From a virus: a stretch of 29,335 nucleotides of DNA. The position numbers were made by a program, and so were the translations under genes. The stretch lies in IMG/VR virus record IMGVR_UViG_3300005577_000070, positions 1 to 29,335 of that record; one strand, written 5' to 3'. Below the pieces are notes generated by a model that saw only the letters and a program-made list of their open reading frames with translations, did no database searches and was not told the origin of the DNA. Of this stretch, positions 4,561-19,849 are shown piece by piece (position 1 is the first letter of the stretch; every line of letters begins with the position of its first letter).

Positions 4561-6516
4561 ATGGCGAGTTCGAATTCCAGTTCTGGTTGGAGCCAATCCG
4601 AGAGCTTTATTCCAGACTACCCGCAATCTGCCCTGCTGCAGCAGATCAGCCAGTACGCGTTCGATCATGCCGACGACACCTACAACTGGGGCATGCAGCA
4701 GTTCAACAAGAACCAAGGCAACATCGATGCCTTGATGCGCGACGCGCTGACGTACGCGTCGCCGCAGCGCATTGCCGCCGACATGGGCATGGCGGAAGCG
4801 GGCGTGATGCAGGCTGCCGAACAAGGCCGCCTCAACGCGATCCGCGATCTTGAGAGCTATGGCATCGACCCGTCGTCGGGCCGCTACGCCGCGCTCGACA
4901 GCGCCAACCGTGTCATGGCCGGTGCGGCGGCAGCGGGTGCCGGCAACCAGCAGCGCATGGCGACCGAAGAGCGCGGCAACACGATGCGCAATCAGGCGAT
5001 CGCTGCCAGCCTGCAGAACGAGGACTTCGGTTTGCGCGCCGGTGACCAGCGCGCGCGCATGCTGAACGCCGCCATGCAGCTGAAGTACCCACCGCTGGGC
5101 AACCGCTCGCAGTCGGAAAACCAGAGCCAAGGCAGTTCGGGCGATGGCGGGGGCGGTGGCGGCGGCAAGGGCGGCGGCGAGAAAGAGCCGAAGGGTGGCG
5201 GGCAGCAGGGCGGCGGCGAAGGTGGTGGCGGGCAGCCGAGTGGCGGCAGGGGCGGACGGCCGAGCCGATCGGCGCCCGTGCAGCGACAGCCGCCGCGCGA
5301 GCCGCAAGACGATAAAGAAAAAAATCCTCTAGGCGACGACAACCCGCTGGACGAGGGTCGCTACTCGGACCGCGGTTATGGCGACCAGTGGCAGAACCCG
5401 GAAGACACCGGCCGCTATTCAGACAGCGGCTACGGCGATCGCTGGGAAAACCCGGAAGACAGCGGCCGCTACTCGGACGAAGGCTACGGCCCCACATGGT
5501 CGCCGGATGAAGGCCGCTATTCAGACAGCGGCTACGGCGATGCGTGGCAGAGCAACCAGTACGAGGACAGCGGCCGCTATTCGGACGAAGGCTATGGCGA
5601 CGGCTGGCAAAGCAACCAGTACGCCGACACCGACACTGATTTCTCCGCGCGCGGCCGCGACGACAGCGACTACGCCGATGAAACCACCGATCGTTATTCG
5701 GACATAGGCTACGGCGACGAGTGGACGCCTGACACGGGCGACGAAGACACCGGCCGCTATTCGGACGATGGCTATGGCGACGGATGGTCGTCCGGAAACG
5801 ACGACTACGACTGGAACCAGTACGACGACGACCTGTACGCCGACGACTATCAGGACGAGCAGGACGAGCTCGACGACTACAACAACAACGACGACACGTT
5901 CGACGACTATCAGGGCGAAGAGAACTACGACGAAGAGGATTACGACAACTACGATTACAACGACGATAGCGACGACTACGACTATAGCGACGACTATAGC
6001 GACGACTATGACGACGGCGGCGACTACGCACGCGGCGGTCCGGTGCGCAGGAAACGACCCGCGCCGCGGCCTGCCGGTTACGGGCGGCAGCGCATGCCGG
6101 TCCGTCGCGCACCGCCGTCGCCTCCGCCGGGGATCACCCAGCGCGCCGCCGAACCGACGTTGCCACCGCGCGCCGGGTACATGGCCGCAACGGGGCGGCC
6201 GCAAGCATCGCCCGGCAGCATGCCGCAGATGGCGATGGCGCGCGGGGGTCAGGTGCCGCCGGGCGGGCCTGATCCGCGCAAGGCCACCAGCGGCGGCTTT
6301 GTCTCGACGAATTTGTCCCCAAGCCGCGGCGCGCAGGTCGACGACGTCGACGCCCGCCTGAACGCCGGCGAGTTCGTCATTCCGAAGGACGTCGCGCAGT
6401 GGAAGGGCAAAGAGTTCTTCTACAAGATGATCGAGCAGGCGCGAAAAGCGGGCGGCATGAACCAGCAGCCGCAGGCGCAATCGCGACCGCAAACCGGATA
6501 TGGGTCACGTCGATGA
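4561..6516 (+). CDS. Repeat-rich hyperacidic virion protein
   Basis: 651 residues; start ATG preceded by a CGGAG Shine-Dalgarno 7 bases upstream. Domains: 1-180, helical and Ala/Gln-rich, with LESYGIDPSSGRYAALDSAN, a pattern I associate with podovirus internal/tail proteins; about 190-245, Gly-rich linker; 266-410, seven GRYSDxGYGDxW repeats; about 412-489, an Asp/Tyr-dominated region with very few hydrophobics; about 489-580, Arg/Pro-rich with YARGGPV (489) and MARGGQV (559); about 595-640, a folded-looking tail with LNAGEFVIPKDVAQWKG, a motif frequent at the C-termini of phage virion proteins. The middle is almost certainly disordered. Its 3' end overlaps the next gene by ATGA. Function unknown; an internal or tail-attached protein is inferred from context. 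Confidence 0.72.
   Translation: MASSNSSSGWSQSESFIPDYPQSALLQQISQYAFDHADDTYNWGMQQFNKNQGNIDALMRDALTYASPQRIAADMGMAEAGVMQAAEQGRLNAIRDLESYGIDPSSGRYAALDSANRVMAGAAAAGAGNQQRMATEERGNTMRNQAIAASLQNEDFGLRAGDQRARMLNAAMQLKYPPLGNRSQSENQSQGSSGDGGGGGGGKGGGEKEPKGGGQQGGGEGGGGQPSGGRGGRPSRSAPVQRQPPREPQDDKEKNPLGDDNPLDEGRYSDRGYGDQWQNPEDTGRYSDSGYGDRWENPEDSGRYSDEGYGPTWSPDEGRYSDSGYGDAWQSNQYEDSGRYSDEGYGDGWQSNQYADTDTDFSARGRDDSDYADETTDRYSDIGYGDEWTPDTGDEDTGRYSDDGYGDGWSSGNDDYDWNQYDDDLYADDYQDEQDELDDYNNNDDTFDDYQGEENYDEEDYDNYDYNDDSDDYDYSDDYSDDYDDGGDYARGGPVRRKRPAPRPAGYGRQRMPVRRAPPSPPPGITQRAAEPTLPPRAGYMAATGRPQASPGSMPQMAMARGGQVPPGGPDPRKATSGGFVSTNLSPSRGAQVDDVDARLNAGEFVIPKDVAQWKGKEFFYKMIEQARKAGGMNQQPQAQSRPQTGYGSRR
5356..5793 (+). 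repeat. Seven in-frame GRYSDxGYGDxW repeats
   Basis: Seven copies of a unit coding for (G/D)RYSDxGYG(D/P)xW are spaced 16 to about 39 residues apart; the spacers are acidic and variable. The unit nucleotides are similar but differ at wobble positions. One interval contains TDTDFSARGR, which reappears next to the single repeat in the following gene. Confidence 0.9.
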
Positions 6517-8438
6517 AGCGCAAACACCGTCGGATCAAGCGTCGGGGCTACGCGGGCGGCGGCCCGGTCACGGCGTCGAATTACGGCGTCGCGAGCGACA
6601 CGAGCGCCGAGACATCGCAGATGGCACCGGTCTATATGTCGGTCACGCTCGACAACCGCAGCCACAATCCGGAGCATTTCAGCGAGGATTACGCTCCGAA
6701 CGAGACCATGCCGGACGGAGCGCCGGAGGTGCCTGAAGGCGCAGGCTATGCGCGCGGCGGCGTCGTTCGCGGTTACGACGACGGGGGTGAAGTCGACGAT
6801 GACGACTACGAGGAAGAAGACGACGCGCCGGAAGCTGAAGAGGATGACGACGAAGGCCCTGCGGAGGGCGCTCCGCCGGTTCGTCCGCAAGGTCCGCCAC
6901 GTCAGCCCGCCGGGGAAGAAGAGGAAGTTGACCCCGAGGAGGGCGGCGATCCGGACCAGATGGAAGCCCGGGGCGACCAAGTCCCCATGGGCCAAGAGAG
7001 CCGCAAGCCGCCGCTAGACACGGACTTCTCGGCCCGCGGCCGCACAGGCTACAACCCCGAGGCGGCGCCCGAGGAAGACACCGGCCGCTACTCGGACGCC
7101 GGCTACGGCCCGCGCATGCCGCAGCAACAGAACGACGAGAGCCGGGTGCGGAACGCGCTTGCGGCCATTCGTCAGGCGCTTGGGCTCAACGAGAACGGCG
7201 GGCCCGAGCCGGCACCGCCGCCGAGTTACGGCCCGCGCACGACGCTCCCTGCCGAAGGGTCGATACTGGACAACGCCGCGAAGTCCTATCAGGCGTCGCG
7301 GATGGACCCGATGACCGAGGGCGGGCTGCCGACGCCCCCCATGGAGGCGCAACGCGACCCGACGCAGCGCGACCCGGCGAACGGGCTCTACCAGCGTGGC
7401 GATTTTGGCGACGATCCGCTTGGCGGGCTCGTCCGCCGCGGCGCGACGGCGCTCAAGAATTACTTCGATGGCGGCGGTGCAATGGCGCAGCCGCAGGTGG
7501 AGCAGGCGCTCGCCAACACCGACAAGACCCGCCCCGGCCTCGACCAAGCGGGCAAGATCGGCAAGACGTTCAACGACATCTATGCGCAGGACCCGAAGGC
7601 CGCCGGCGAGTTCGTGCAGGCGATGAAGCCGTCATACGCGAACCTGCGCGCAGCGGCGATGGCCGCTGCCGGTCAAGGCGCGCTGGTCGAAGCCACGCAG
7701 CTGGCGTCCAAAATGAACGACCTTATCCCCAACGGGAAGTCGGTCACGTTCACGCGCGGACAGAACGGCAACATCAACGCGCATGTGCGCGACGCGATCG
7801 AGGGCGGCAAAGAGACCGCGGTGTTCACCATGACGCCGCAGCAGTTCGCCAATTACCTGAAGGGCCCTGCGTCGACGCTGGACGGCGCCGTCGAACTTGG
7901 CGTCGAGAAGGCGCTTGGCTCCGCCGGCAAACTGGTCACGCCGGAGCAACAGCGGCAGGGGCCGAGCACGGGCTACCAGCGCGCAATGGAGGACTACAAG
8001 CTCCAGATGCAGGCGTATCGCGCGTTCCCGTACCAAGGCCAAGAGGGTCAGTTCGAGCGGCTGCTCGACCGGCTGCGCAACGGCGGCGACCGGGTGAACG
8101 CCGAGCGGGCCAAACAACAGGCGATCACCGATCGCCAGAACAAAAATTTGGATGCCGTCGATCGTCGGTACCGCGACATGGACGAAGCGCGAGGTCTGCG
8201 CGAGGTCTACAAGGGCATCAACGACAAGTTCAAGGCCGACCCCGGCTACAAGCCGACGCCGCGCGAGCAGCAGATCATCGACCGGGTGCAGGAGCGCTAC
8301 AGCCGCGACCGCAACGCGCCGCAGCCGCAGCAGAGCGCGCCAGCGAACAACAGCGCTCCGCCGAGCGCGGCGCCGGCCGGCATGGTCTGGGGCCGTTCGC
8401 GCTCGACCGGTGAGTGGAGCCTGCGACCGCAACGGTGA
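6513..8438 (+). CDS. Second repeat-bearing virion protein
   Basis: The ATG at 6513 is chosen over the earlier open-frame start (6399) because it gives a 4-base ATGA overlap with the previous stop; length 641 residues. The N-terminus is a very basic patch (MKRKHRRIKRRG) followed by YAGGGPV and, at about 79, YARGGVV. An Asp/Glu-rich stretch follows at about 88-155. TDFSARGR and one GRYSDAGYGP unit, shared with the upstream protein, lie near 170-202. The second half is Gln/Arg-rich and helical, ending GMVWGRSRSTGEWSLRPQR. No enzyme motif, signal or membrane segment. Sharing of repeats and position suggest that it works with both neighbours in the virion or in DNA delivery (inference). Confidence 0.7.
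   Translation: MKRKHRRIKRRGYAGGGPVTASNYGVASDTSAETSQMAPVYMSVTLDNRSHNPEHFSEDYAPNETMPDGAPEVPEGAGYARGGVVRGYDDGGEVDDDDYEEEDDAPEAEEDDDEGPAEGAPPVRPQGPPRQPAGEEEEVDPEEGGDPDQMEARGDQVPMGQESRKPPLDTDFSARGRTGYNPEAAPEEDTGRYSDAGYGPRMPQQQNDESRVRNALAAIRQALGLNENGGPEPAPPPSYGPRTTLPAEGSILDNAAKSYQASRMDPMTEGGLPTPPMEAQRDPTQRDPANGLYQRGDFGDDPLGGLVRRGATALKNYFDGGGAMAQPQVEQALANTDKTRPGLDQAGKIGKTFNDIYAQDPKAAGEFVQAMKPSYANLRAAAMAAAGQGALVEATQLASKMNDLIPNGKSVTFTRGQNGNINAHVRDAIEGGKETAVFTMTPQQFANYLKGPASTLDGAVELGVEKALGSAGKLVTPEQQRQGPSTGYQRAMEDYKLQMQAYRAFPYQGQEGQFERLLDRLRNGGDRVNAERAKQQAITDRQNKNLDAVDRRYRDMDEARGLREVYKGINDKFKADPGYKPTPREQQIIDRVQERYSRDRNAPQPQQSAPANNSAPPSAAPAGMVWGRSRSTGEWSLRPQR
7075..7116 (+). repeat. Eighth GRYSD repeat, in the neighbouring gene
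   Basis: This segment encodes EDTGRYSDAGYGPR, matching the units at 5356-5793. It is preceded at about 7018-7041 by TDFSARGR, which is also found within the first array, so a module rather than a chance word is shared between the two genes. Confidence 0.85.
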
Positions 8439-15404: not shown

Positions 15405-15584
15405 ATGAGCAACTACCAACCGAACGTCGACGTGTTCATGGACCACGTCGAGATCGATGGCCAGAAGTTAACCCGCCCCGCCAACGTTGCTCGTTCCGAC
15501 TGGAACAAGTTCTGGGACCGGTTTTCCGTGAGCAACCAGAAGATGCTCGAATACACTTGGTCCGACCGGTACCGGGATTTCTAG
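15405..15584 (+). CDS. 59-residue protein at the convergent junction
   Basis: ATG at 15405 is preceded by a strong AGGAGGG. The product begins MSNYQPNVDVFMDHVEIDGQ and ends EYTWSDRYRDF; it is Trp/Asp/Arg-rich and plausible as a folded small protein. It is the last plus-strand gene and overlaps tail-to-tail with the minus-strand primase-helicase gene by about 117 bases. Confidence 0.6.
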   Translation: MSNYQPNVDVFMDHVEIDGQKLTRPANVARSDWNKFWDRFSVSNQKMLEYTWSDRYRDF

Positions 15585-18419
15585 GCACATCTCCTGCGCC
15601 AGCGAGAAGGACGTACCAGCGCCCAACGTGTGCCGGACTTCCTTCACGCTGAAGTGCTTCGACAGTCCATCGAATACCTGCCGCGGGCGCTGCTCTTTCT
15701 TCTCCAGCCACTCCCTGAACGCACGTTTTGAAACCACGAACATCCGCAGATCGCGGATGAACTGGATGTAGATGTTCTTGCCGGCGTTCGGCGAGGCCAG
15801 CACCGTGACCGGCACCTCGTGGTGGCGGAATTTCTCGCGGGTGTAGAGCGCATGGCCGGCGCCGACGTGCTCGTTGAGGAAGTCGACGATCGCGTTCTGC
15901 GTGTTCTTGTACGACCCGCCTTCGTTGCCGCTGTCCAGCCGCGTCTTGCGGTTCTGCATGAACGTGTCGATGAGGAACTTCGTCATCTGCTCGACGTCCA
16001 GATCGATACCGATCTTGCGCGCGAGCAGCGCACCGGCCAGCAACACGCCGCAGAGGCCCCACCAGAAACTCTCGTCGGAGCCGCCGTTCACGGCTTGTCT
16101 GAACGAGCTCGTCGTGTGCCCGACAAGGTCTTTTATCATCGTGTGTTCGCGCGCCAGCATCGCGGCGTAAGTGGCGCCGACGCCGCCGTAGTTGTGTTCG
16201 AGCGCGGCGAACTTCCGCAGCGCGTCGACCGGATCGACGGCCGGGTCTTCGCGTTTCTCATAGTGAATTTCAAACACACGGCGGATGCCGGCCGTGGTGC
16301 TCTTTTGTTTCTTCACCAGATAGTCGACGAAGCTGGAGTTCGAACAGCACAACACCATCGACTGCCATTCGAGACGCTGCTTGTAGGAGCTATCCGGGTT
16401 GAGCCTGCCGCCCTCAGTGCCTTCGGTCGCCACGAACATGACGTCGAACAGCGCCAGCTGGTGCCGTTCGTCCTGAATGTCATCCCAGTACGCGGGCAGG
16501 TTCTTGGTGCGGCCAAGGCGGCCCTGCACCGACTTCGGTGTTGACGTCAGGCTCTCGCGGGTCTGTTTCGGATGCCCCCAGACGGAGGCGGCGACGTGCT
16601 GCGTGATGCTCTTGCCAGAACCAGCGCCACCATACAGCGACAAGACAGAGCCATAGAGTGCACCAGCAAAGACGATCAATGGCGCGGCAAACGGCACCGC
16701 TAGAATGATATTGAGCTCTGCGCGCTTGCGATCGGTGATCAGCTTCGCTGCCTCGAACCATGCCTCGCTCTCTCCCTTCGGGGTGTACCACTGGCGAAAT
16801 TCATCGTCGACGGTGGTCTGCACGAGGGGCGTCTGCGTGCCGTCGCTGTTGTACATGACGCCGCCGTAAACGAAGGCGGACAGCTTGCCGTCCTTGTCGT
16901 GTTTCCAGCCCATGCCGGGGTCGCGCACGCTGGCTTTGTCTTCTTCGAGGAGCTTGTCGAGCCACGACGTGGCGAACCGTTCAACCATGATCTTTGCTTC
17001 CGGAGATGGATTGTAGAGCACACCGTTCTCGGCGAGCGTCGATAAAAGACCGCTGTCGCGGTACGCCGCGCCGGCGCCGATGAACACTTCGACTTCGGCC
17101 CCGCGATCGGCGCTGGCAACGAAGCTGATCCCGCGCATGCCGTTGTGGACCTGCAGCTGCGGGCTGCGGATCACGTTGTAGATCAACAGCAAAAGTTTCG
17201 CCGGTTCCTTTTTCTTCTTCACGATCTGCGATGGAACGAACCAGCAAAGCTGCTTCTTTTCGTTGAGGCAAAATCCGGCCGGAAGACGCAATTCGACCGG
17301 GCGCGTCCCCTTCAACAGGGCCATTTCTTCGGCGATGGCCTCCTCGCGGATGACTTCCTGCGCGAGCGCCAGCGGTGACCTGCCTTTGGCGAAGTGCGGA
17401 CAGGCTTTGCAGAACGCACCGGCACCGCTCTCGGAAATGGTCTTGCACGACGGCCAGCCAAGATCACGCTGTTGCTGGTCATCGACCTTGCGGTCGAACA
17501 TTTCGTCCGTTTTGTGTGGGACGTAGTCGTGGTGCTTGTTGCTCAGTTCATGGAAGACCTCGCGGCCGTTCTCCATGAACGTCGCCGCCAGCGCCATGAG
17601 ATGCCACTGCGGCTGATCGAAGTCGCGGCCGCCGGTCTCAAAAGCCGCGCCGAACCACCCGCAGCCGTTTTTGATGGGCAAAAAAGGGAGCGGCGGGAGT
17701 TCCTCCGCCATGTTCTCGGCCAGCTTCTGGTTCGGGTCGAGATGCTTGAACGCATCCGCCACCTCGATACGGCCCGTGCTGGCCTTCGGTGCACCGGCGT
17801 AGCCGAGCAGCATCTTGAAGGTGTGCGAGAAGTCGAACCACTGGCCGCTGGAGCCCTCCACGAGCTCGACGACGCGCGGCGCGCCGTACTTGTGGTTCAG
17901 CGTGCCGGGGAGCCGCAGGATGCGCGCGGCGTCGGCCGTCACTGTCGGGTCGATCTTGAAACCGTATGTCGCCGCGGCGATCTTCAGCCCTTCGGCGTAG
18001 GGCTTCCAATCGGAAATCGGCAAATCACGGTCCGAGAACCAGTAGGCATGGAGCCCGCCGCCCGAGAGGACCACGGCCGAAGGCTTCGGCATGCCGGTCT
18101 TTTTACAAAAGACGAGCAGCGCCTCCATGGCGTCTTCGACGGTCTTGTAAAATTTCTTTGGGCCGACGTCGACGTCGATGAACAGCGATCGCGCCGCGAC
18201 GGCGTTGTCGGCTTCGCGCTTGCCGCCGCCTTCCTGCTGGCTGGTCAGACAGAAGTAAAAATCGTTCTGCAGCGCAAGTTGCCTTGCGGCCTGCAGAACT
18301 TCATCGGGCGTGCGGCAGGAACGGCTACGGAAATGACCTTTCCATTTGGCATGGTGCCAATTGACGACGACATGGTGTCCCCACGGGACAACAGACGCCA
18401 AAAAGTCCCTGACTTTCAT
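15468..18419 (-). CDS. Primase-helicase (AEP-like primase plus DUF927-like P-loop helicase)
   Basis: 983 residues. Residues 1-200 look like an archaeo-eukaryotic-type primase: metal-binding FIDVD (D82, D84), SGGGLHAYW (119-127, H124), and ADAARILRLPGTLNHK (162-177). At 218-237 is the VADAFKHLDPNQKLAEN peptide shared with the neighbouring gene. A C325, C337, C340, H342 set (CKAC-P-H) looks like the zinc region usual between primase and helicase in such proteins. The helicase has Walker A YGGAGSGKS (596-604) and Walker B YWDDIQD (D646, D647), in the style of the DUF927 family. It would make primers and unwind phage DNA. The final 30 residues are Pro/Val-rich and overlap the opposite-strand gene. 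It is the last gene of the operon, with a 55-base gap before it. Confidence 0.88.
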   Translation of the reverse strand: MKVRDFLASVVPWGHHVVVNWHHAKWKGHFRSRSCRTPDEVLQAARQLALQNDFYFCLTSQQEGGGKREADNAVAARSLFIDVDVGPKKFYKTVEDAMEALLVFCKKTGMPKPSAVVLSGGGLHAYWFSDRDLPISDWKPYAEGLKIAAATYGFKIDPTVTADAARILRLPGTLNHKYGAPRVVELVEGSSGQWFDFSHTFKMLLGYAGAPKASTGRIEVADAFKHLDPNQKLAENMAEELPPLPFLPIKNGCGWFGAAFETGGRDFDQPQWHLMALAATFMENGREVFHELSNKHHDYVPHKTDEMFDRKVDDQQQRDLGWPSCKTISESGAGAFCKACPHFAKGRSPLALAQEVIREEAIAEEMALLKGTRPVELRLPAGFCLNEKKQLCWFVPSQIVKKKKEPAKLLLLIYNVIRSPQLQVHNGMRGISFVASADRGAEVEVFIGAGAAYRDSGLLSTLAENGVLYNPSPEAKIMVERFATSWLDKLLEEDKASVRDPGMGWKHDKDGKLSAFVYGGVMYNSDGTQTPLVQTTVDDEFRQWYTPKGESEAWFEAAKLITDRKRAELNIILAVPFAAPLIVFAGALYGSVLSLYGGAGSGKSITQHVAASVWGHPKQTRESLTSTPKSVQGRLGRTKNLPAYWDDIQDERHQLALFDVMFVATEGTEGGRLNPDSSYKQRLEWQSMVLCCSNSSFVDYLVKKQKSTTAGIRRVFEIHYEKREDPAVDPVDALRKFAALEHNYGGVGATYAAMLAREHTMIKDLVGHTTSSFRQAVNGGSDESFWWGLCGVLLAGALLARKIGIDLDVEQMTKFLIDTFMQNRKTRLDSGNEGGSYKNTQNAIVDFLNEHVGAGHALYTREKFRHHEVPVTVLASPNAGKNIYIQFIRDLRMFVVSKRAFREWLEKKEQRPRQVFDGLSKHFSVKEVRHTLGAGTSFSLAQEMCLEIPVPVGPSVFEHLLVAHGKPVPELVPVGTSNVGGAG
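17711..17768 (-). repeat. Shared peptide-coding block, copy in primase gene
   Basis: 58 bases matching 19383-19440 at 49 positions, same strand and frame. Apart from one E/Q codon, the seven remaining differences are synonymous, so the encoded peptide, not the DNA, is conserved. Confidence 0.9.
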
Positions 18420-18474
18420 TCCCGGTCCGCCCCTGCCGCACGGTGTGATGCTCCCGTGCCGTATTCCTACAGCG

Positions 18475-19458
18475 CTATTTGAGCATGTCCGAGAGCTTTT
18501 TGCCCAAGGCGTTTTTCACGGCGTCGTCGAGGTTCGGATCGCTCTCCTCCGGGTCTCCCTCGCCGCCGTCGCTGTCATGCTGCTGCTGCGGCTCCGCGAC
18601 CGCCTCCACCAGCTTTGGCCGGCGCTGCTGGCGCTTGGGCGGCTGGATTTCGCCGTCCTTGACGGCGCCGCCCGCTGCGGCGAACGCGCCCAACAGGCCC
18701 GTGTCGACCGGACCGTCGTCCCGCTTCGGCTCCGGCTTCGCCAGCATCTGCACGCGCGGTGCGGTGCCGATCAGTTCCCGGACCTGCGGGTCTTCCAGCA
18801 TCGGGAGCACCAAAGGTGCTTCGGCGTTGGTCAGCGGTTGCAGAAACGTAAAATTCATCTGGAACTGCTTGTTCGGGTCGAACGAGATGCGCGTGATCAC
18901 GCTGGCGAAGTGCGCGCCGCGGTGGTTCAGCTGGTCGCTGTAGGACTTGAAGGTCTTCAGGCTGGCCGGCGGGACCTTGAAAAAGACGCCTTCCAGCAGC
19001 GGCGCTTCGAGCGGCGGCATGGTAGCCATGGTCGGCAGGAGCAGGATCGCGACCCGGCGGTGATCCTGACACTCTTTGCCCTGCCGGTTTGGGAGCCACT
19101 GGTTGTGGGGACAGATCGCGCACGACTGCGCCTGCGGCGAAGGACAGCCCGGGTCGGGCACGCTGCCGTCCACCGAGGTGCAGTCCGGCGCCTCTTGGCT
19201 GTCCTCCACGTAGGTGCCCTCGTAGTACATCTTCGAGTTCTGCGGGTTCACGCCAATAAAAATGACGTCGAGGTACGGCAGGGGCGTCCCATCGTCCTTC
19301 CGTACGAACAGGTGCTTGGTGCCCTGATGCATCAGGGCCCACGTCTTGCCCTTGAAGACAACGCGGCTGAAGCCGGCCGAGATGTTCTCCGCGAGCTTCT
19401 GGTTTGGATCGAGATGCTTGAACGCGTCTGCGACTTGGATTTTGGTGTTATCAACCAT
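18475..19458 (-). CDS. Cys-rich candidate ssDNA-binding protein
   Basis: 327 residues; ATG preceded by GAGGAAG and overlapping the previous stop by 8 bases. Residues 7-26 hold the VADAFKHLDPNQKLAEN peptide also found in the primase. Then comes a beta-looking region (LDVIFIGVNPQNSKMYY) with a Cys set in the pattern C...C...CAICPHNQW...ECQDHRRVAIL, likely zinc-binding. The last 80 residues are Pro/Gln-rich and acidic and end in a short helix (LDDAVKNALGKKLSDMLK), a layout like ssDNA-binding proteins with an acidic tail. I have seen similar uncharacterised proteins in other phages next to nucleases and primases. The ssDNA-binding function is inferred. Confidence 0.65.
   Translation of the reverse strand: MVDNTKIQVADAFKHLDPNQKLAENISAGFSRVVFKGKTWALMHQGTKHLFVRKDDGTPLPYLDVIFIGVNPQNSKMYYEGTYVEDSQEAPDCTSVDGSVPDPGCPSPQAQSCAICPHNQWLPNRQGKECQDHRRVAILLLPTMATMPPLEAPLLEGVFFKVPPASLKTFKSYSDQLNHRGAHFASVITRISFDPNKQFQMNFTFLQPLTNAEAPLVLPMLEDPQVRELIGTAPRVQMLAKPEPKRDDGPVDTGLLGAFAAAGGAVKDGEIQPPKRQQRRPKLVEAVAEPQQQHDSDGGEGDPEESDPNLDDAVKNALGKKLSDMLK
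19383..19440 (-). repeat. Shared peptide-coding block, copy at N-terminus of Cys-rich protein
   Basis: Partner of 17711-17768. It encodes IQVADAFKHLDPNQKLAEN where the primase has IEVADAFKHLDPNQKLAEN. Confidence 0.9.
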
Positions 19459-19849
19459 GGTTCTTCCTCACTCCCAGTGAACGGATCGTGTTGAGTTTGA
19501 CGCCCGGCGGCAGCCGACCGTTGTTGAACTTAGCGTATTCGCGGCACGCCGTGCCGTTGGCACGACGGTCCATGAGCTCGTAAAGATCGTTCTCGCGAAC
19601 GAACTCCATGAACGCGTCGGCGTCGGACAGGCTGGCGGTGGACTTCTCCAGCGCGCTCACCGTGCCGTGGACGGTCTTGATGTTCTTGGCGCCGAGGGCG
19701 TCAAGCGCCTTGAGAATTTCCGTGGCGATCTCGTCTTTTTTCGCCTTGAATGGTGCGAGTTGCTTATCCACGAGTGCTTCGGTCTGCTCGATATGCGTCC
19801 GGATCGCGATGAAGTTCTCGACCATGGTGTCGATGCGTTTCTGGTCCAC
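19451..19849 (-). CDS. Small coiled-coil phage protein near recombination genes
   Basis: 132 residues; GTG start supported by GGAGA 6 bases upstream. The first 55 residues are a long charged helix (VDKQLAPFKAKKDEIATEI), then a small domain with ENDLYELMDRRANGTACREY and the C-terminal PPGVKLNTIRSLGVRK. This arrangement recurs in uncharacterised phage proteins beside nucleases; some resemble Gam-like nuclease inhibitors in layout. No catalytic residues. A DNA-end or nuclease partner role is possible but unproven. Confidence 0.68.
   Translation of the reverse strand: MDQKRIDTMVENFIAIRTHIEQTEALVDKQLAPFKAKKDEIATEILKALDALGAKNIKTVHGTVSALEKSTASLSDADAFMEFVRENDLYELMDRRANGTACREYAKFNNGRLPPGVKLNTIRSLGVRKNHG

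Follow-up and report, generated by a model that had tools for sequence, protein, structure and literature searches.

The window, by which we mean the whole 29,335-nucleotide stretch analysed here (IMG/VR virus record IMGVR_UViG_3300005577_000070), encodes a primase-helicase and a neighbouring Cys-rich protein, most likely the single-stranded DNA-binding protein (SSB) of the phage, that carry the same 17-residue peptide. Comparison of sequences across phages indicates that this sharing is real, more general than first noted, and functional at the level of the peptide, with the letters differing between phages and matched within each. Such pairs point to a primase that would dock on coated DNA via a plug not described before. 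In our preferred reading, to which we assign a probability of roughly 55%, the SSB peptide would dock on the core of a neighbouring SSB, and the primase would mimic this peptide to dock on SSB-coated DNA.

The primase-helicase and the shared peptide

The two genes and the peptide copies within them lie as follows.

15468..18419, minus strand: primase-helicase of 983 amino acids, with an N-terminal archaeo-eukaryotic primase (AEP, or PrimPol) domain, a disordered linker and a DUF927-type AAA+ helicase
18475..19458, minus strand: Cys-rich protein (putative SSB) of 327 amino acids, with a probable N-terminal docking peptide, a 4-Cys core and a C-terminal helix
17634..17834, minus strand: primase linker, which joins the AEP domain to the following helical domain; within the primase, the own-phage signal is found here alone
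17712..17762, minus strand: copy of the motif in the primase linker, VADAFKHLDPNQKLAEN, residues 220-236 (from sequence, tblastn and comparison of open reading frames)
19384..19434, minus strand: copy of the motif at the SSB N-terminus, VADAFKHLDPNQKLAEN, residues 9-25 (from the same three sources)

For the primase-helicase, a DUF927 domain is found in Pfam (PF06048, 3.1e-14; PriCT_2 only weakly, 0.013), while profile matches in the PDB include the DUF927 helicases 8tch (4.9e-27) and 5dgk (7e-26) as well as the PrimPol AEP 6zp9 (0.0016). With Foldseek, the primase homologue from one other phage locus (L014) gave 5dgk (1.4e-17) and 6zp9 (5.3e-8, TMt 0.74). Moreover, the invariant residues of the primase are D82 and D84 (DxD), G120, G122 and H124 (GxH), R169, N175, K177, and K603. 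By catalytic residues and predicted fold, the protein thus appears to be an AEP joined to a DUF927 AAA+ helicase. As a matter of labelling, we noticed that the Rhizobium phage primase-helicase (MN988472.1; L001:7279-10362) is entered in GenBank as a 'putative integrase protein', and 'integrase' labels recur for the primase matches in Pseudomonas phages.

The first-pass annotation had reported one peptide in both proteins, and our own search places VADAFKHLDPNQKLAEN at just those positions, in the primase linker and close to the N-terminal end of the Cys-rich protein. The matching block consists of 19 codons, I(E/Q)VADAFKHLDPNQKLAEN, with nine base differences, two of them in the E/Q codon and seven silent, the latter all in separate codons. 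Together with the base that follows, 49 of 58 bases match, so the earlier count stands, and the codons flanking the block are likewise unrelated. In a six-frame search of the contig, there were just two sites for the peptide (score of 89, against 25 for the runner-up window), and neither this search nor tblastn gave a third copy in the 29 kb. Using tblastn with the whole Cys-rich protein against the contig, the primase copy was retrieved with E = 1.3e-7, and when the SSB N-terminus was compared with 271 six-frame open reading frames, the primase ranked first (99 versus 33 for the second). Two copies by chance are ruled out.

Matched peptides across phages

When viral contigs were scanned with one protein at a time, nothing but a near-identical contig came back, and family alignments were needed. 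Among these, the broad alignments (A3 and A5) held no pattern conserved enough for scanning, whereas narrower ones worked. The Cys-rich family alignment, scanned against IMG/VR, yielded 40 loci, most with the primase adjoining, and with three primase scans added there were at least 232 phage loci with both segments. This number includes the re-fetched window region and near-identical contigs, and all statistics were done on dereplicated sets.

Here, the co-occurrence of a peptide in the two neighbouring proteins, which the first-pass annotation had put forward as one check, is found across phages with letters that vary from phage to phage. In Rhizobium phage RHph_TM3_14A, both homologues are present in the same order, the Cys-rich protein having TDELSAGI and the primase TSELSAGI. 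Other SSB and primase pairs include INDDLTAH in both proteins (L033, L034, L037, and L041), SEFSTGVT and SEFSAGIT (L028), PPALFANRKSSLNAAAMAGV and PPALAKVRKSSLTAAAQAGV (L024), and KFAQSRVSHDDLGAG and KFKASKLAGDDLAAG (L010), and the shared peptides take forms such as ELSAGI, SEFS(T/A)G, and RKSSL(N/T)AAAxAGV. The nearest relative of the window (L167, 46% primase identity) has VAKSFKHLDPSQGLADGI in the SSB and IAPAFKQLPVEPLSDQL in the primase, and another near relative (L157) has MAPAFAEALNPAEQFGEGINA and MASEFAAQLMPGDRFGAGIDV, respectively. In the clade of the window, the architecture of the motif is kept and its letters vary, and they do so in both proteins. In a further class of motif, the two proteins of L268 share KRELSELSKSLM, and L279 and L287 have variants of the KRE(L/M)SE(L/M) type.

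The 17-mer itself is peculiar to the window phage, and the general form, as judged by inspection, is bipartite. Element A reads (V/L/I/M)(P/S/A)xx(F/L) and is followed, after a spacer of 5-12 residues, by element B, which approximates (N/D)x(L/F)(S/T/A)x(G/H/N)(I/V); in some phages, the primase has no clear element A. In the window, the elements were assigned by inspection of the family comparison at these positions.

17748..17762, minus strand: element A in the primase (VADAF)
17709..17732, minus strand: element B in the primase (NQKLAENM), of which K232 and L233 served as positive controls in the covariation scan
19420..19434, minus strand: element A in the SSB (VADAF), in a region partly helical in the AlphaFold2 (AF2) models, with a predicted local distance difference test (pLDDT) score of ~70
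19381..19404, minus strand: element B in the SSB (NQKLAENI)

When SSB N-termini were scored against primase linkers in 36 phages, own pairs reached 34.6 and mismatched pairs 21.4, a result above all 20,000 permutations; the excess persists in 14 dereplicated phages sharing less than 36% identity, and when the window and L024 are left out. In a larger set of 98 phages below 60% primase identity, the scores were 31.4 for own and 20.75 for mismatched pairs (z = 21), and for the 24 phages below 35% identity they were 33.4 and 19.9 (z = 10). Of the own pairs, 15% have an exact string of at least five residues in common, against 2.4% of the mismatched pairs.

This own-phage signal is confined to one place. 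Along the primase of the 36 phages, it appears only at window residues 160-280 (34 versus ~19 elsewhere), and the rest of the primase gave none in the 98-phage set (z 0.7). Likewise, no signal was obtained with the gp33-like protein (z 0.42), the exonuclease (z 0.06), the VRR protein (z 0.8), or polA (z 0.24 in 33 phages), and that of SNF2 was marginal (z 1.8, p 0.04), with unconvincing top matches among those listed. As candidates for a third carrier of the motif, the gp33-like, SNF2, exonuclease, VRR-NUC, and polA families were thus rejected, nothing beyond the marginal SNF2 signal having come up. The SSB core plus tail, scored against its own N-terminus, gave z = 3.35, which is mostly composition (24.4 versus 23.7 shuffled).

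The Cys-rich protein as a probable SSB

The family of the Cys-rich protein corresponds to PHROGs 27714 and 23155, whose listed function is unknown, and PDB profile, Pfam, and Foldseek searches assigned it no named fold. Four cysteines (C93, C113, C116, and C130) are invariant in 35 homologues. The AF2 model of the protein has a pLDDT of 75.7, with a beta-rich core mostly above 90, and its first-ranking Foldseek matches in the PDB are the RB69 and T4 gp32 cores (E 0.17-0.23); profile searches gave no gp32 match, and the family is not filed as gp32. It may nonetheless work like gp32. At the other end of the protein, C-terminal segments of the homologues are D/L-rich, and the window protein has a helix here.

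18481..18531, minus strand: predicted C-terminal helix of the SSB, residues 310-326 (AF2, low confidence), which resembles the protein-recruiting tail of an SSB

A clearer indication comes from gene context. In one branch (L158-L161, L163, L165, L170-L172, L177, and L203, among others), the loci retain the primase together with what appears to be a gp33-like gene, the Cys-rich protein is not detected, and the slot between the two genes holds a protein of ~215-230 amino acids. That of L172 is a Gp2.5/Enc34-type SSB (PHROG 112, 2.6e-18; PF10991, 1.4e-6), which suggests a non-orthologous replacement in an SSB gene slot. Because an SSB of this type holds its slot, the Cys-rich protein is itself most likely the phage SSB. 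The first-pass annotation had taken it to coat single-stranded DNA (ssDNA), and this is backed by gene context and weakly by fold (gp32, E about 0.2). Moreover, the primase linkers of the branch show no consistent match to the slot protein. In Xp15 and HHU4, the reverse combination is seen, the Cys-rich putative SSB together with an unrelated primase; a similar SSB N-terminus is kept, so the SSB peptide seems useful without this primase, and there is no convincing copy of the peptide in their primases or elsewhere.

A proposed receptor of the two copies

We infer that both copies share one receptor, and propose that it is the SSB core. With T4 gp32 as the model, the N-terminal peptide would act in cooperativity by docking on the adjacent SSB core on ssDNA. 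The copy in the primase linker would mimic this peptide, so that the primase could dock on the SSB filament in the manner of the next SSB subunit and would thereby be held at the SSB-coated template. Groove and peptides would co-evolve in each phage, giving phage-specific pairs. Four points favour the SSB core. The match of the primase linker is lost where the SSB is of another type; the Xp15 and HHU4 SSBs keep a similar N-terminus, with primases that are unrelated and lack a convincing copy; columns 165 and 184 of the SSB rank high for motif similarity; and gp32 itself docks its N-domain on the core of the adjacent gp32 (PMC12893549). In two dereplicated sets, these columns occupy ranks 1-3 among ~1060 non-motif columns scored for how well they track motif similarity, falling to rank 97 at lowest in random halves, and they delimit a candidate surface.

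18907..18966, minus strand: candidate receptor surface of the SSB core, A165 to F184 (column covariation, exploratory and confounded by phylogeny)

Several observations weigh against this proposal. The covariation is confounded by phylogeny, and it weakens once further proteins are included, the SSB columns then not being clearly separated from those of the gp33-like and SNF2 proteins. The own linker is the single best match in just 19% of the 98 phages, because many phages share a generic L-S-A-G form, and L020, L027, and L038 display little own-pair similarity. The first-pass annotation had suggested modelling the peptide in complex, and neither AF2 model has it docked. In one of these, the L014 SSB was fused to its primase (the TGA read through under table 4); here, the primase peptide and element B of the SSB are both below a pLDDT of 50, as is the primase linker at model residues 552-575, which is disordered, and the SSB N-terminus is partly disordered. 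Furthermore, the similarity to the gp32 fold is not significant (Foldseek E about 0.2), and reports of ssDNA or other binding by the Cys-rich family were not found in the open literature searched.

On a wider scale, it is conceivable, though we hold this tentatively and at less than even odds, that primase loading by such mimicry is common to a large and so far unrecognised set of phages, each with a private code in which groove and both peptides would co-evolve fast, so that its replisome would be kept separate from those of related phages infecting the same cell.

As a possible but decidedly less probable arrangement, both copies might dock, in the fashion of sliding-clamp partners, on a third protein, of the phage or of the host, that bridges primase and SSB. 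The candidates, to which that judgement applies jointly, are the gp33-like protein, the SNF2 helicase, the family A polymerase, and a host factor. A gp33-like gene is nearby in 97 of the 98 dereplicated loci and SNF2 in 92, and a few columns of both proteins also correlate with motif similarity. However, none of the other phage families tested clearly carries the motif, and in the branch with the other type of SSB the linker match is lost even though an apparent gp33-like gene is kept. The gene in question is a conserved upstream neighbour (PHROG 13900, 3e-20; PF23984 weakly, 0.0034).

19451..19849, minus strand: gp33-like (Gam-like) protein without the motif, candidate third-party receptor

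The primase as receptor seems unlikely. Here, the SSB N-terminus would bind a domain of the primase, and the linker copy would serve as an internal competitor, with autoinhibition released by the SSB. Competition for a single groove would fit the presence of one peptide in two neighbouring replication genes, and the flexible linker could fold back. Yet Xp15 and HHU4 retain a similar SSB N-terminus together with an unrelated primase that has no convincing copy, and the AF2 model has no sign of intramolecular docking, its linker being of low confidence.

Convergence, copying, and selection

That two disordered segments converged through composition or low complexity is very improbable. A, D, L, S, and G do make up many of the motifs, and motifs of the generic L-S-A-G class are frequent. 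However, shuffling the own linkers lowered the score from 31.4 to 19.6, mismatched pairs and the rest of the primase lack the signal as described above, and INDDLTAH, KRELSELSK, and VADAFKHLDP are not of low complexity.

The codons speak to whether the peptide or the DNA has been kept. If the nine substitutions had accumulated by neutral drift, at most one amino-acid change would be expected with P = 6e-5. In the window pair, 10 of the 17 codons are identical, with 8.8 expected had the peptides been encoded independently at the codon usage of the window (P = 0.37), and over 42 phages with 356 identical residues there were 135 identical codons, against 152 expected. Silent sites are thus saturated, so the DNA match of the window copies is only what an identical peptide forces, and the similarity at the DNA level, which the first-pass annotation had cited as evidence, adds nothing beyond the peptide. 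Since codon choice bears no trace of copied DNA, the match is held at the level of the peptide, and the peptide is under selection. The comparisons accordingly uphold the claim that selection keeps it, in both proteins and with the copies varying jointly; the opposite outcome, a peptide in one family only and diverging freely, was looked for, and the peptide was found in both, its copies diverging together. Recent copying from one gene to the other without function, which the unusual length and identity of the window pair relative to L167 might recall, is the least credible explanation and was rejected by the codon tests on the window pair and the 42 phages, by the drift estimate, and by the dozens of divergent phages in which the two peptides match. 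As far as 17 codons can tell, the peptide may have been copied long ago and then kept by selection.

Implications

Should primase docking by mimicry of the SSB peptide be correct, it would propose a function for a phage family listed as unknown and provide a link between SSB and primase that is readable from sequence. Matched copies that vary from phage to phage in two non-homologous proteins would amount to a natural library of co-evolved peptides for a single interaction, and peptides could then be used to test directly how a phage primase finds SSB-coated template. In fragmentary viral contigs, the rule might offer a way of matching a primase gene to its SSB gene.

Other repeated motifs in the window

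Elsewhere in the window, two neighbouring plus-strand genes (4561-6516 and ~6500-8438), presumably for virion proteins, have repeats of their own. Both contain TDFSARGR, as a single copy per gene, and GRYSDxGYG, of which the first gene has six copies and the second has one; a 54-base tandem array lies at 5359-5551. In addition, YA(R/K/G)GGxV or MARGGxV occurs at 6025, 6235, 6549, 6747, and 15215 in three plus-strand open reading frames, and is possibly a further motif common to virion proteins.

Comparison with known systems

In the open-access literature that our searches covered, and within the text available from it, no description of a motif shared by SSB and primase was found, in agreement with the view of the first-pass annotation that the motif is undescribed. 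The domain combination of the window primase is that of the AEP primase-DUF927 helicase proteins of mobile elements, and the available text on these likewise made no mention of a motif common to the linker and an SSB. Among them, the DUF927 helicase of SCCmec has a solved structure (5dgk) and is an active helicase (PMC5862659).

Partners of the bacterial SSB bind its C-terminal (SSB-Ct) tip through a pocket on the partner. The tip recruits replication and repair enzymes (PMC7145534), and the likeness to our proposal lies in an SSB tail peptide acting as a recruiter of enzymes. Unlike in the bacterial case, the phage partner carries the same peptide, and the SSB copy is N-terminal.

In T4 gp32, the N-terminal domain docks on the adjacent core in cooperativity, and an acidic C-terminal domain serves for partners (PMC12893549). 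The window protein would likewise be a phage SSB with an N-terminal segment docking on the adjacent core. In contrast, the LAST motif of gp32 (KRKST) is basic, with a near-repeat in the DNA trough of gp32 itself, whereas the phage peptide described here consists largely of hydrophobic and acidic or polar residues and has its second copy in the primase.

Closest in principle are the BRC repeats of BRCA2, which mimic the oligomerization motif of RAD51 (FxxA), so mimicry of this kind exists (PMC12606624). In both cases, a partner would carry a copy of the motif by which a coating protein joins its neighbour. The proteins and the sequence are different, however, and the phage motif varies between phages while being matched within each.

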